Shown: positions 25,856 through 29,813 of the stretch, piece by piece
How positions within the stretch are numbered: the stretch's first letter is position 1
How the letters are laid out: each line of letters begins with the position of its first letter
Origin: a virus
Direction: 5' to 3' (one strand)
Virus record (IMG/VR): IMGVR_UViG_3300046694_000324
Coordinates: 1-39,496 of that record
DNA length: 39,496 nt
The notes under the pieces: generated by a model
What the model was told of the DNA's origin: nothing
Databases searched by the model: none
The model's input: only the letters and a program-made list of their open reading frames with translations
Translations under genes and position numbers: made by a program

Positions 25856-26447
25856 CAAGATTTTCACGACGATACTGGCCGACGCCGCGAAGAACGGCGT
25901 CAAGGCCGCTTCACTGGAGGCAGACGCGCGCAAGTGGTTCCGTGCCAAGGCTCGCGAGGTGAAGAGGGTGAACACTCGGGGCATGCTGGCGGACTCGACC
26001 GACAGGTACAGGCAGAGCATGACGCCGGGCAACATGTTCACTTTCTACTACCAGCCCAAGCACCGCGACACCCTCCCCTACTACGACCAGTTCCCGCTCA
26101 TCTTCCCGATCGCGATAGACAAGGAGGGCATCCTCGGCATCAACCTGCACTACCTGCAGCCGGTACTCCGCGCGAAGCTGCTCGACGCGCTGTACGAGCA
26201 CCTGTCGAACGACAAGCTCGACGAGAAGACCAAGATGCAGGCCACGTACGCGGTCCTCAAGAACGCGTCGGGCTTCAACCTCGTCAAGCCATGCATCAAG
26301 AGGTACCTGAAGACACACGTGCGTTCTCGCTTCGTGAAAGTATACCCGACCGAGTGGGACGTCGCCGCCATGCTGCCGACTCAGCAGTTCGTCAAGGAGT
26401 CATCATCACACGTGTGGGCCCAGTCCCGCAAGAAGGCCGGCCTATGA
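25848..26447 (+). CDS. Conserved T4-like protein, probable gp2 (DNA end protector)
   Basis: 199 residues starting with GTG at 25848, overlapping the gp4 stop by 8 bases. The middle block MTPGNMFTFYYQPKHRDTLP, YYDQFPLIFPI, GILGINLHYLQPVLRAKLLD is a pattern I associate with T4-like proteins annotated as gp2, which caps genome ends against host RecBCD. In T4, genes 2 and 4 are neighbours, as here. The C-terminus is basic (RSRFVKVYPTEWD, QSRKKAG). I am not certain of the residue-level match to T4 gp2, so the name is tentative; a virion head protein is likely. Confidence 0.6.
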   Translation: MPSKIFTTILADAAKNGVKAASLEADARKWFRAKAREVKRVNTRGMLADSTDRYRQSMTPGNMFTFYYQPKHRDTLPYYDQFPLIFPIAIDKEGILGINLHYLQPVLRAKLLDALYEHLSNDKLDEKTKMQATYAVLKNASGFNLVKPCIKRYLKTHVRSRFVKVYPTEWDVAAMLPTQQFVKESSSHVWAQSRKKAGL

Positions 26448-27211
26448 CGTTCAGCATCTCAGACATGTCCTCCGCGATCAACTCCTATAACGGGGTGATG
26501 CGGCCCAACCGCTTCAGCGTCATGATCACCCCGCCACCCTGGAACAGCGACTCGAACGAGTGCCGGCTCATCGAGGTGTTCTGTGACCAGGCCTCGCTCC
26601 CGGGAATAACCTTCGCGACCAACGACGTCAAGAACCTGGGCTACGGCCCGACGTTCAAGCTGCCCCACACCCCGATCTACACTGACGTGGACGCCACCGT
26701 GCTGCTCGACAACGACGCCGTCGTCCTGGGCTTCTTCCAGAAGTGGGTCCAGAACGTCATGAACGTGAACCCTGCGGGGTCGCCGTCCACGTCGGGCTAC
26801 AACGGGGCCAGGATGTACGCGGTCCAGTACCCGTCGAACTACGTGACGACTGTGTCGATCATGCTCTACGACGGCGAGGCGAACACCATCGTGCAGTACT
26901 CGCTGAACGAGGCCTACCCGCTCCGCCTGGGACAGCCAACTCTCGACTGGTCCAACAACAACCAGGTCCTGAAGCTCCCCGTGACCTTCACGTTCCGGAC
27001 CTGGACCTCGACGCTGTTCGCGGCCAATGACCAGTCCCTGGAAGAGTCTATGGCCACGTTCGACCCGTTCGCCACCACGGTGTCCGGTTCCCTGTACGAC
27101 ACCTCGACCTACTCGTACCTGTCGCTGGGCCAGGCCCTGACTAACGCCGCGGTCTCACTGATAAATAATTCTGGAACATACAGCAACAACCTCGTGAACA
27201 TATTCAACTGA
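26444..27211 (+). CDS. 54: Tail-tube family protein, probable tube initiator gp54
   Basis: 255 residues. Tube-fold features: MRPNRFSVMITPP, EVFCDQASLPGITF, a middle with LLDNDAVVLGFFQKWVQNVM, then YDGEANTIVQYSLNEAYPLR and LDWSNNNQVLKLPVTFTFRT, a pattern shared by gp19, gp48 and gp54. It has a C-terminal extension (about 60 residues, Ser/Asn-rich) that gp19 lacks and T4 gp54 has, and it is beside gp26/gp29 rather than near gp18, so gp54 is preferred over the major tube protein gp19. Start ATG forms ATGA with the preceding stop. Confidence 0.75.
   Translation: MTFSISDMSSAINSYNGVMRPNRFSVMITPPPWNSDSNECRLIEVFCDQASLPGITFATNDVKNLGYGPTFKLPHTPIYTDVDATVLLDNDAVVLGFFQKWVQNVMNVNPAGSPSTSGYNGARMYAVQYPSNYVTTVSIMLYDGEANTIVQYSLNEAYPLRLGQPTLDWSNNNQVLKLPVTFTFRTWTSTLFAANDQSLEESMATFDPFATTVSGSLYDTSTYSYLSLGQALTNAAVSLINNSGTYSNNLVNIFN
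27160..27167 (+). promoter_or_regulatory. Late promoter GATAAATA (gp26/tape measure)
   Basis: Plus-strand CTGATAAATAATT in the 3' end of the gp54-like gene, about 55 bases upstream of the gp26 start. Same form as the mirror pair at 25363-25412. Confidence 0.55.
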
Positions 27212-27221
27212 GAGACGTGAC

Positions 27222-27932
27222 ATGGCGCTACCCAAGATACAGGCCCCGACGTTCCGGGCCAGGCTCGAGTCTACAGGAAAGGACGTGCGCTACCGCGGCT
27301 TCCTCGTGAAGGAAGAGAAGCTATTGCTGGTGGCGAAGGAGTCTAACGAGCGCAAGGACCTCATCGACGCGTTCAAGCAGATCGTGACGAACTGCGTCAT
27401 CGACGAGGTAGACGTGGACTCGCTCCCGCTGTTCGACCTCGAGTACCTGTTCCTGATGATAAGGTCTAAGTCCCAGGACAACAAGGCCAAGGTCAGGATC
27501 ACCGACGAGGACGACAAGCAGGAGTACGACGGCTTCTTCGACTTCGACAAGGTGACGTTCACGCGAGACCCGAAGCACTCCAAGACGGTAGACCTCGACG
27601 GGAAGGTCGGAGTCGTGATGCGGTACCCGACGATCCGAGACCTGGAAGAGCTGGGCATGTTCGAAGAGGCCGCCGAGCTGAAGTCGGAGGCCGTGATAGC
27701 CCTCATCAAGAGGTGCATCGAGAGCGTCTATGACGCGGACGACGTGTACCCCATGGCCGAGTCGACCGACGCCGAGAGGGAAGAGTTCTTTGACTCTCTC
27801 TCGAGCTTCTACGTCGAGCGCATACAGGAGTTCTTCACGACGCTGCCCGCGGTAGTGGGCTGGGTCGAGTACAAGAAGGACGGGAAGATGGTGAAGAAGG
27901 AGATCAGGGGCGCTGCTAATTTTTTAGCGTGA
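27222..27932 (+). CDS. 26: Baseplate hub protein gp26 (T4_baseplate family)
   Basis: Hub assembly protein. 236 residues (T4 gp26 is 208). The N-terminus MALPKIQAPTFRARLESTGK, then VRYRGFLVKEEKLLLVAKES and DLEYLFLMIRSKSQDN are typical of the T4_baseplate family. The 3' end contains the heptamer T TTT TTA in the right reading phase, followed by a hairpin, where a -1 shift would fuse residue 235 to the next ORF (about 293 residues in total). Lying just before the tape measure, gp26 plus the small ORF look like the G/GT tail-assembly chaperone pair. Confidence 0.9.
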   Translation: MALPKIQAPTFRARLESTGKDVRYRGFLVKEEKLLLVAKESNERKDLIDAFKQIVTNCVIDEVDVDSLPLFDLEYLFLMIRSKSQDNKAKVRITDEDDKQEYDGFFDFDKVTFTRDPKHSKTVDLDGKVGVVMRYPTIRDLEELGMFEEAAELKSEAVIALIKRCIESVYDADDVYPMAESTDAEREEFFDSLSSFYVERIQEFFTTLPAVVGWVEYKKDGKMVKKEIRGAANFLA

Positions 27933-27957
27933 GCCTCGCGTACGTTAGTCTCGCGAG
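27920..27957 (+). promoter_or_regulatory. Probable -1 programmed frameshift signal in gp26
   Basis: Slippery heptamer T TTT TTA at 27920-27926, read as AAT TTT TTA in the gp26 frame. After an 8-base spacer there is a 6-bp GC-rich stem: CTCGCG (27935-27940) with CGCGAG (27952-27957), loop of 11. Slipping back one base gives AGC GTG AGC, exactly the frame of the small ORF at 27929. The zero-frame stop TGA lies only four bases after the heptamer. Confidence 0.65.
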
Positions 27958-28102
27958 CTTCTACCACCTGAACTTCGTCCTGCACCTGAACGACTACTCG
28001 ACCGAGGAGGTCGAGAACTGGCTGCCGTACGAGAGAGACATCTACGTGCGGCTGCTCATGCAGCACATAGAGAAGAAGAATGCTTCCAACTCCGGCTCCT
28101 AG
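27929..28102 (+). CDS. Small ORF after gp26, likely made as a gp26 fusion
   Basis: 57 residues if started at GTG 27929, which overlaps the gp26 stop (GTGA). Protein features: LAYVSLASFYHLNF, HLNDYSTEEVENWLPYERD and IYVRLLMQHIEKKN. No good ribosome-binding site precedes the GTG; the frame is instead entered directly by the -1 slip in gp26. The pattern (aromatic FYHL start, a helix with WLPYERDIY) resembles short C-terminal parts of tail-assembly chaperones. It ends 23 bases inside the tape-measure gene. Independent expression by reinitiation remains possible. Confidence 0.7.
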   Translation: MSLAYVSLASFYHLNFVLHLNDYSTEEVENWLPYERDIYVRLLMQHIEKKNASNSGS

Positions 28103-29813
28103 GCCTACTAACACTGACGGCGAGGCCGGCTCCTCCGCCCGCGGGACTTCGGGCGTCTTCTACTACGTGTCCACGCTGCTGTTCCAGAGCTACCTGACAG
28201 ACCGCCAGATCCTCATCAACACCACCAAGATGGTCAACCAGCTCGACAAGCTGATCAACTTCTTCTCGGACAACCGGGTGAGGGGCGAGCAGTCGCAGGA
28301 GGAGGAGTCCATCAAGAGACCCGTCGGGTCTTCTGGAGACGACGGCCTCGTCGGCGCGCTCAAGGACACCATCGGGTTCATCACGATCAAGGCCGCGGTC
28401 CTCGCGATAGGCACCGCCATCACGATGCTGGCAGACGACATCCAGTCTACCGTGAGGCAGACAGTCGCCTACCTGGCACTCGCACGGACGCAGACCATAG
28501 ACGCGGTGAAGGCCGTTCCCGGCATAGTCAAGTCCATACTCGGAACAGTCGGTGACGTGGCCGCGGGCCTGCGAGACGGCGTTCTGATCGAGCTGGAAGC
28601 CCAGGGCGTCAAGGTAGTGAGGGCCTTCGAGGCCGTAGCCGACTCCAGGGCAGTGGGCGCCTTCGTCAGGGCGTTCGAGGGCGTGTACAGGGCAGTCAGG
28701 CTGATGACCGCTCCCCTGATCCGGATAACCGAGGTCTTCCTCAAGCCCATGATAGCGCTGTTCGAGGGCATCGGCAGACTGGGTATGCAGGCCCTGTCCG
28801 TGGTCGCGAAGGGCGCGTCAAAGATATTCCTGCCCCTCCAGGTGCTCCTCAGCACCATCGACTTCGTCAACGGCTTCATCGAGGGCTACGAGCGCTCGGG
28901 GGTCAAGGAGGGCATCCGCACCGGCCTGGTAAAGGTGTTCGACGGCCTCTTCATCGCGGTGATAGACATAGCCAAGCGCTTCGTCGCCTGGGTGCTGGAC
29001 CTAGTTGGGATGGACCAGCTCGCGGCCTCGCTCCGGAAAGAGATAGACAGGATAGTAGTGGACCTCCGAGGGGTGTTCTCGGGGATAGTCGATATCTTTC
29101 TGGGACTAGTCACGCTAGACGGCAAGCAGGTGTGGGACGGGCTCAAGACCGGCTTCTCCTCACTGGGCATGCTCGTGCTGCACAACGTCACCGCGATGAT
29201 CGACTTCGTGGTCAACTTCGTGCGTGACATGTTCGGCATCGAGGGAGAGCCGTTCGACCTGTTGAAGTCCAGCTTCGTGGACAGCATAGTAGGTATACTG
29301 ACGTCGTTCGCGACGGCCGTCGCCGACTGGCTGAAGGAGTCGCTGCGGGCGGTGGTCGTGAAGGTGGCGGGTGACAAGGTGGCGAACCAGGTGTTCGGGG
29401 CCAAGCAGATCACAGAGTCTGACGTCGCCGCTCGAGCCGACTCCATAGCTAAAGGTAGGGCCCTCGACTCGATAGACCCGGGAGCCAGGCTCCGGGCGGC
29501 CTCAGGGCAAGACGCTGACCTGGACAAGCTCAAGTACGCCGTCACAGACGAGGACAAGAAGAAGGCGCGCGAGGAGCTAGCGCGCGAGGGCTACGTCGAC
29601 GCGCCCGAGGTCAAGATCGATGACCAGCAGTTCCAGAAGATCGACAAGATACTCAACGACACGTCCACCAAGAACGAGTCCAAGACAGACGTGACCGTGA
29701 ACAACACCAAGATAACGAACGGGGCCGGAGCTGGTGGCTCACGGCCCGTCGTCATACCGGTCCCCATGCAGGAGAAGGCGTCTCAGTCGAACCCCGTCAG
29801 GCGCAGCAACTAG
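28080..29813 (+). CDS. 29: Tape measure protein gp29-like
   Basis: Determines tail length and sits inside the tube. 577 residues against 590 in T4 gp29, so a tail of similar length is expected. It is largely helical and Ala/Val/Leu-rich, with amphipathic and hydrophobic segments in the middle (GFITIKAAVLAIGTAITMLA at about 100-119; FLPLQVLLSTIDFVNGFI; VDIFLGLVTL), as in tape measures that also interact with membranes. The C-terminal 100 residues are charged and flexible, ending in NPVRRSN. It follows gp26 and the frameshifted ORF, the usual chaperone-then-tape-measure order. The 3' end overlaps the convergent minus-strand gene by four bases; no terminator is visible there. Confidence 0.83.
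   Translation: MLPTPAPRPTNTDGEAGSSARGTSGVFYYVSTLLFQSYLTDRQILINTTKMVNQLDKLINFFSDNRVRGEQSQEEESIKRPVGSSGDDGLVGALKDTIGFITIKAAVLAIGTAITMLADDIQSTVRQTVAYLALARTQTIDAVKAVPGIVKSILGTVGDVAAGLRDGVLIELEAQGVKVVRAFEAVADSRAVGAFVRAFEGVYRAVRLMTAPLIRITEVFLKPMIALFEGIGRLGMQALSVVAKGASKIFLPLQVLLSTIDFVNGFIEGYERSGVKEGIRTGLVKVFDGLFIAVIDIAKRFVAWVLDLVGMDQLAASLRKEIDRIVVDLRGVFSGIVDIFLGLVTLDGKQVWDGLKTGFSSLGMLVLHNVTAMIDFVVNFVRDMFGIEGEPFDLLKSSFVDSIVGILTSFATAVADWLKESLRAVVVKVAGDKVANQVFGAKQITESDVAARADSIAKGRALDSIDPGARLRAASGQDADLDKLKYAVTDEDKKKAREELAREGYVDAPEVKIDDQQFQKIDKILNDTSTKNESKTDVTVNNTKITNGAGAGGSRPVVIPVPMQEKASQSNPVRRSN

Follow-up and report, generated by a model that had tools for sequence, protein, structure and literature searches.

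A gp26-type gene in the analysed stretch of viral DNA (39,496 bp in full, hereafter the window) appears to encode a short tail assembly chaperone (TAC-N), and on sequence evidence it is highly probable that a -1 ribosomal slip at the heptamer T TTT TTA carries translation on through a gp51-type domain, giving a predicted 293-residue long form (TAC-NC). The gene lies at 27222-27932 on the + strand, and its 236-aa product matches PF12322 (E=5e-48) and the baseplate hub family phrog_150 (E=9e-56). As the preliminary description had proposed, the heptamer is located in the correct phase at the end of this gene (27920-27926, + strand), one codon before the zero-frame stop that ends TAC-N (TGA, 27930-27932, + strand), with the zero frame reading GCT AAT TTT TTA GCG TGA. 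The -1 frame is closed by a TAA directly 5' of the heptamer (27917-27919, + strand) and is thereafter open as far as a TAG at 28100-28102; because a -1 shift must avoid both the TAA of the -1 frame and the TGA of the zero frame, it is confined to the 10 nt from 27920 to 27929. An in-phase X XXY YYZ heptamer inside a two-frame overlap, the pattern by which programmed -1 frameshifting was recognised, is therefore present. The hexamer TTTTTT occurs once on both strands of the 39,496 bp, exactly at the heptamer, against approximately 3.2 expected from shuffles, so T6 runs are otherwise absent from the window. Across seven genes (2010 codons) the TTA codon is used once, that being the TTA of the heptamer, and 6 of the 109 Phe codons of these seven genes are TTT.

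The -1 ORF matches phrog_634, annotated 'baseplate hub assembly catalyst' (gp51), over nearly its full length (E=2.6e-16), as well as the C-terminal end of phrog_150. Both components of a T4-like chaperone locus are thus found, namely a TAC-N in PF12322/phrog_150 and a C-terminal domain homologous to gp51/phrog_634. The latter domain (TAC-C; 27926-28102 including the stop codon, + strand) would add 58 residues after the shift, so that the predicted products are the 236-aa TAC-N and a 293-aa TAC-NC (235 + 58) with the junction ...NFL/SVSLAY. The fusion length of about 293 residues, the 57 codons of the ORF when counted from GTG 27929, and the want of a convincing ribosome-binding site had all been anticipated and agree with these data, GTG 27929 being the sole candidate start of the ORF in the window and lying without a Shine-Dalgarno (SD) sequence. 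The identity of the ORF, previously treated as anonymous, is amended to that of a known gp51-type domain. In comparison with the nearest relative found (L002, gp26 70% identical), this ORF gave a dN/dS of 0.31 when read in the -1 frame and 1.18 and 3.7 in the remaining frames, which indicates that the -1 frame is under purifying selection; the value for gp26 itself was 0.32. The flanking genes comprise a tail tube protein gene upstream (26444-27211, + strand; phrog_45 E=8e-33, PF23849 E=2e-12) and, directly after TAC-C and overlapping its end, a 577-aa ORF (28080-29813, + strand) that is probably the tape measure protein gene. This ORF itself returned no strong family match, tape-measure PHROGs being matched only by its syntenic counterparts in relatives (phiM7 1.8e-5, phi-ST2 1.7e-6 and Bellamy 5.9e-7). 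An ORF of identical length occupies the same place in L002.

To follow the site across relatives, loci were collected by gp26 patterns, retaining the best 80 per scan; a first round gave 86 loci including the window, and three more scans and further isolates were then added. Clusters were formed at 60% identity with one representative each, and counts of heptamer types use 201 representatives at 80% identity. When the 3' ends of gp26 were aligned, as had been suggested by way of a check, both heptamer and frame proved to be near-universally conserved: an in-phase T TTT TTN was present in all 86 first-round loci among the matches listed, the window included (42 TTTTTTC, 41 TTTTTTT and 3 TTTTTTA), and in the pooled sample at the 3' end of 273 of 275 distinct gp26 genes and in 98 of 100 clusters, again among the matches listed, opening the same domain. 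Every first-round heptamer (86/86) falls after the nearest upstream stop of the -1 frame and before that of gp26, the zero-frame stop following after 0-8 codons, and outside this site the hexamer is in phase at 9 of 19,909 positions in these genes. Among the heptamers of the family T TTT TTA is the least common, being carried by 6 of the 201 representatives, a rarity that counts against the frameshift reading. The heptamer was found in Kyanoviridae, Emdodecavirus, Schizotequatrovirus, Ishigurovirus, Menderavirus, Pootjesviridae and Otagovirus, and there was no sampled locus in which it had been lost and the ORF kept with a ribosome-binding site of its own.

In many relatives the heptamer is preceded at about 10-11 nt by an SD-like GAGGG/GGAGG element (e.g. 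L003, L004, L014 and L077). Elements known to stimulate -1 shifting lie at a distance of 9-14 nt (PMC5009743), a range that includes the relatives' element, a putative stimulator with -1 geometry. In 36 of 98 clusters one of GAGG, GGAG and AGGA stands 9-12 nt upstream of the heptamer, against 17.4 +/- 2.9 expected and a maximum of 25 in 300 synonymous-codon shuffles; this de-replicated figure replaces an effect of t=-8.4 that was inflated by related sequences. Where Glu is encoded at the SD-like position, GAG is the codon used in 29 of 46 cases, as opposed to 605 of 2173 at other sites (p=1e-6). The window carries AGGGG at 27906-27910 (+ strand), 9 nt upstream of the heptamer, in the same register as the relatives' GAGGG, a weak and non-canonical match pairing with the anti-SD at approximately -5.7 kcal/mol. 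A second candidate, AAGGAG at 27897-27902, was ruled out as a stimulator, lying 17 nt from the heptamer, beyond the 9-14 nt range, and being absent in L002.

Downstream of the heptamer, the 6-bp stem that had been proposed to start 8 bases after it does exist as sequence (27935-27940 with 27952-27957, 8-nt spacer), with an alternative of 8 bp and one bulge between a 5' arm at 27932-27940 (AGC-C-TCGCG) and a 3' arm at 27952-27959 (CGCGAGCT), both on the + strand, the outer pairs of which also form in L002. Its z values against dinucleotide shuffles were -1.34 (39 nt) and -0.20 (60 nt), and against synonymous shuffles -1.10, making it weak evidence when taken alone. The register of this stem (i+j=38) was not conserved as a family-wide stem. 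Among relatives, 27 of 97 clusters have a 9-bp stem (alignment A5; for example L274:2187-2266) that joins +8..+16 to +55..+63 after the heptamer, with a 7-nt spacer and a 38-nt loop; 25 of these 27 have T TTT TTT. All nine pairs are formed in 23 of the 97 clusters, compared with a mean of 0.44 and a maximum of 2 in synonymous shuffles, and the Ser codon in the 5' arm is AGY in 22/22 stem cases versus 8/35 others (p=1.7e-9). Compensatory changes numbered 12 cells in the selected stem set, against 1.9 in shuffles, and 34 cells against 12.1 in all 43 T TTT TTT clusters, chosen regardless of pairing; the covariation score of these 43 was 0.286 versus 0.174 +/- 0.015. The shuffles used in these comparisons leave the effect of relatedness in place. 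Pairing fell from 80.9% to at most 40% once the 3' arm was displaced by 1-3 nt, a control in which relatedness is kept. On the gp26 tree the stem label requires 10 changes, at least 6 of them forced by well-supported branches, versus 23.8 for shuffled labels, and the 9-bp stem has therefore recurred or been lost repeatedly.

The remaining clusters fold somewhat better than their synonymous shuffles (mean z -1.09 +/- 0.16) through various local hairpins, and it is to this class that the window belongs, with its AGGGG and with a short stem (z -1.1) that is partly common to L002; the arms of the +8/+63 stem do not pair in the window. Five loci (L213, L238, L291, L331 and L087) have strong local hairpins that begin 6-9 nt past the heptamer, in registers that differ by clade, which suggests repeated replacement of the stimulator. 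Rfam returned no match within 27700-28200. A likely explanation for these observations taken jointly is that T4-like TAC sites carry clade-specific RNA stimulators, in some lineages the SD-like element 10-11 nt upstream and in others the 9-bp stem, associated with T TTT TTT and acquired or lost on several occasions, with the heptamer reduced to T_TTY in Ackermannviridae, so that the chaperone ratio would be tuned by exchangeable RNA signals. Subsets of the gp26 family thereby resemble Escherichia coli dnaX, in which an upstream SD-like element, a slippery heptamer and a downstream stem are combined, but dnaX differs in its A AAA AAG heptamer, its product ratio of approximately 1:1 and its unrelated protein, and the SD match of the window is weak.

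These conservation patterns also bear on other ways in which the two frames could be expressed. The -1 ORF might be an independent gene (gp51) with its own start or with termination-reinitiation at the gp26 stop, a reading to which GenBank lends some support by annotating a separate gp51 in many cyanophages, some with ATG starts, and for which the overlap between the gp26 stop and the ORF would make coupling possible. This is nevertheless improbable, as only 2 of the 86 first-round loci show an ATG or GTG backed by an SD of at least 4 nt, leaving 84 without, 36 of the 86 contain no ATG at all, and the window offers only its GTG. Furthermore, protein conservation extends up to the heptamer, the SD-like element is too far from the starts and sits instead at the distance of a -1 stimulator, and the T6 run, which would have no role in a separate gene, is kept throughout nearly all of the pooled sample.

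Transcriptional slippage on the T run, which would join the frames by changing mRNA length, is somewhat less probable still. It would draw on a homopolymer of 6-7 T, and E. coli genes avoid T7 runs whatever the frame, which may be due to such slippage; six T's, though, are short for efficient slippage, the 42 first-round sites of TTTTTTC type follow the X XXY YYZ pattern, and slippage would not predict the conserved SD-like and stem elements, spaced as they are for ribosomal frameshifting. That a one-base indel, by chance or through sequencing error, merely mimics a frameshift has a negligible probability: homopolymers are error-prone, but the arrangement recurs in sequenced isolates and in independent contigs numbering hundreds, the zero-frame stop lying near in every first-round locus, and the pooled-sample conservation among the matches listed refutes this reading.

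Ribosomal frameshifting thus preferred, the relatives sampled conform to the gp26 fusion scheme that had been put forward for T4-type phages, but T4 itself does not. In T4 and the other examined Straboviridae of its branch, gp26 (~200-214 aa) and gp51 (242-251 aa) are separate genes on opposite strands. T4 gp51 covers phrog_150 13-280 plus phrog_634, one gene thereby matching the whole frameshift product, whereas T4 gp26 covers phrog_150 14-235 only. The two are mutually similar (BLASTP E=2e-6, 20% identity; L008:5803-7229) and both belong to PF12322; the window's proteins are homologous to them, differing from the T4 arrangement in that the Phe-Phe codons of T4 gp26 are kept as TTC TTT and the slippery heptamer is lost. 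An internal product, gp26', is also annotated in T4. Ackermannviridae-type gp26 genes (L091, L094, L338, L339, L340, L341 and L342) have kept the -1 C-terminal domain, often unannotated, with a slippery site that is usually T_TTC or T_TTT only, and a full heptamer is present in the related Vibrio phage Bakedbeans (L343).

By analogy with lambda G/GT (PMC5009743), a minority of ribosomes would slip back one base at T TTT TTA, miss the nearby TGA and go on through the gp51-type domain to give TAC-NC; the shift would be ribosomal and of low rate, the abundant short form would bind and coat the tape measure protein, and the C-terminal domain of the rare long form would recruit tail tube subunits. 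The locus resembles lambda G/GT in its short form and predicted frameshifted long form, encoded next to a probable tape measure gene, and in a zero-frame stop soon after the site, but TAC-N showed no homology to lambda G in this analysis. The AlphaFold model of TAC-N (pLDDT 87.9) gave no Foldseek match in the PDB at E<=0.001, solved tail chaperones included, its viral matches being gp26 relatives; a sequence search of solved structures with the gp26 profile returned chance matches only (best E=0.024), and NCBIfam gave nothing relevant. The heptamer of lambda G/GT also differs from T TTT TTA. The equation of gp26 with G and of the fusion with GT, made in the preliminary description, accordingly stands on position, architecture and published work, because there is no fold match to solved tail chaperones; going by the model, this lowers the case that TAC-N is a gpG homologue, and would not lower the case that it works like gpG.

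Vladimirov and colleagues reportedly named T4 genes 26 and 51 in 2022, with frameshifting said to be conserved in several T4-like groups. As represented in papers citing it, that work (Vladimirov, Gautam & Davidson 2022, Virology 566:9-15, doi 10.1016/j.virol.2021.11.003) identified the tail assembly chaperones of T4-like phages, the passages concerned describing T4-like phages in which the short and the long chaperone have a gene each (PRFect, PMC10885494) and poly-T frameshift signals in TAC-N genes (PMC12846349). The earlier view that gp26 frameshifting is generally undescribed in T4-like phages is consequently withdrawn, and since such frameshifting was published in 2022 the window represents a new, divergent example of a known arrangement. 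For the SD-like element, the 9-bp stem and the reduced T_TTY site, no prior report was traced in the literature searched, in which Vladimirov et al. 2022 was represented by the papers citing it.

These results indicate that, a few cases apart, the small 'baseplate hub assembly catalyst gp51' annotated in cyanophages and their relatives is the part of gp26 read after the frameshift, and therefore that a joined-gene annotation would be appropriate in hundreds of records. A passage of the review by Atkins et al. 2016 (PMC5009743) describes G-T frameshifting as conserved in long-tailed phages except T4, and the present data support the view that T4, the long-stated exception, makes both forms from two genes. 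The conserved RNA elements on either side of the heptamer offer a direct and testable way into the question of what sets the proportion of short to long chaperone.
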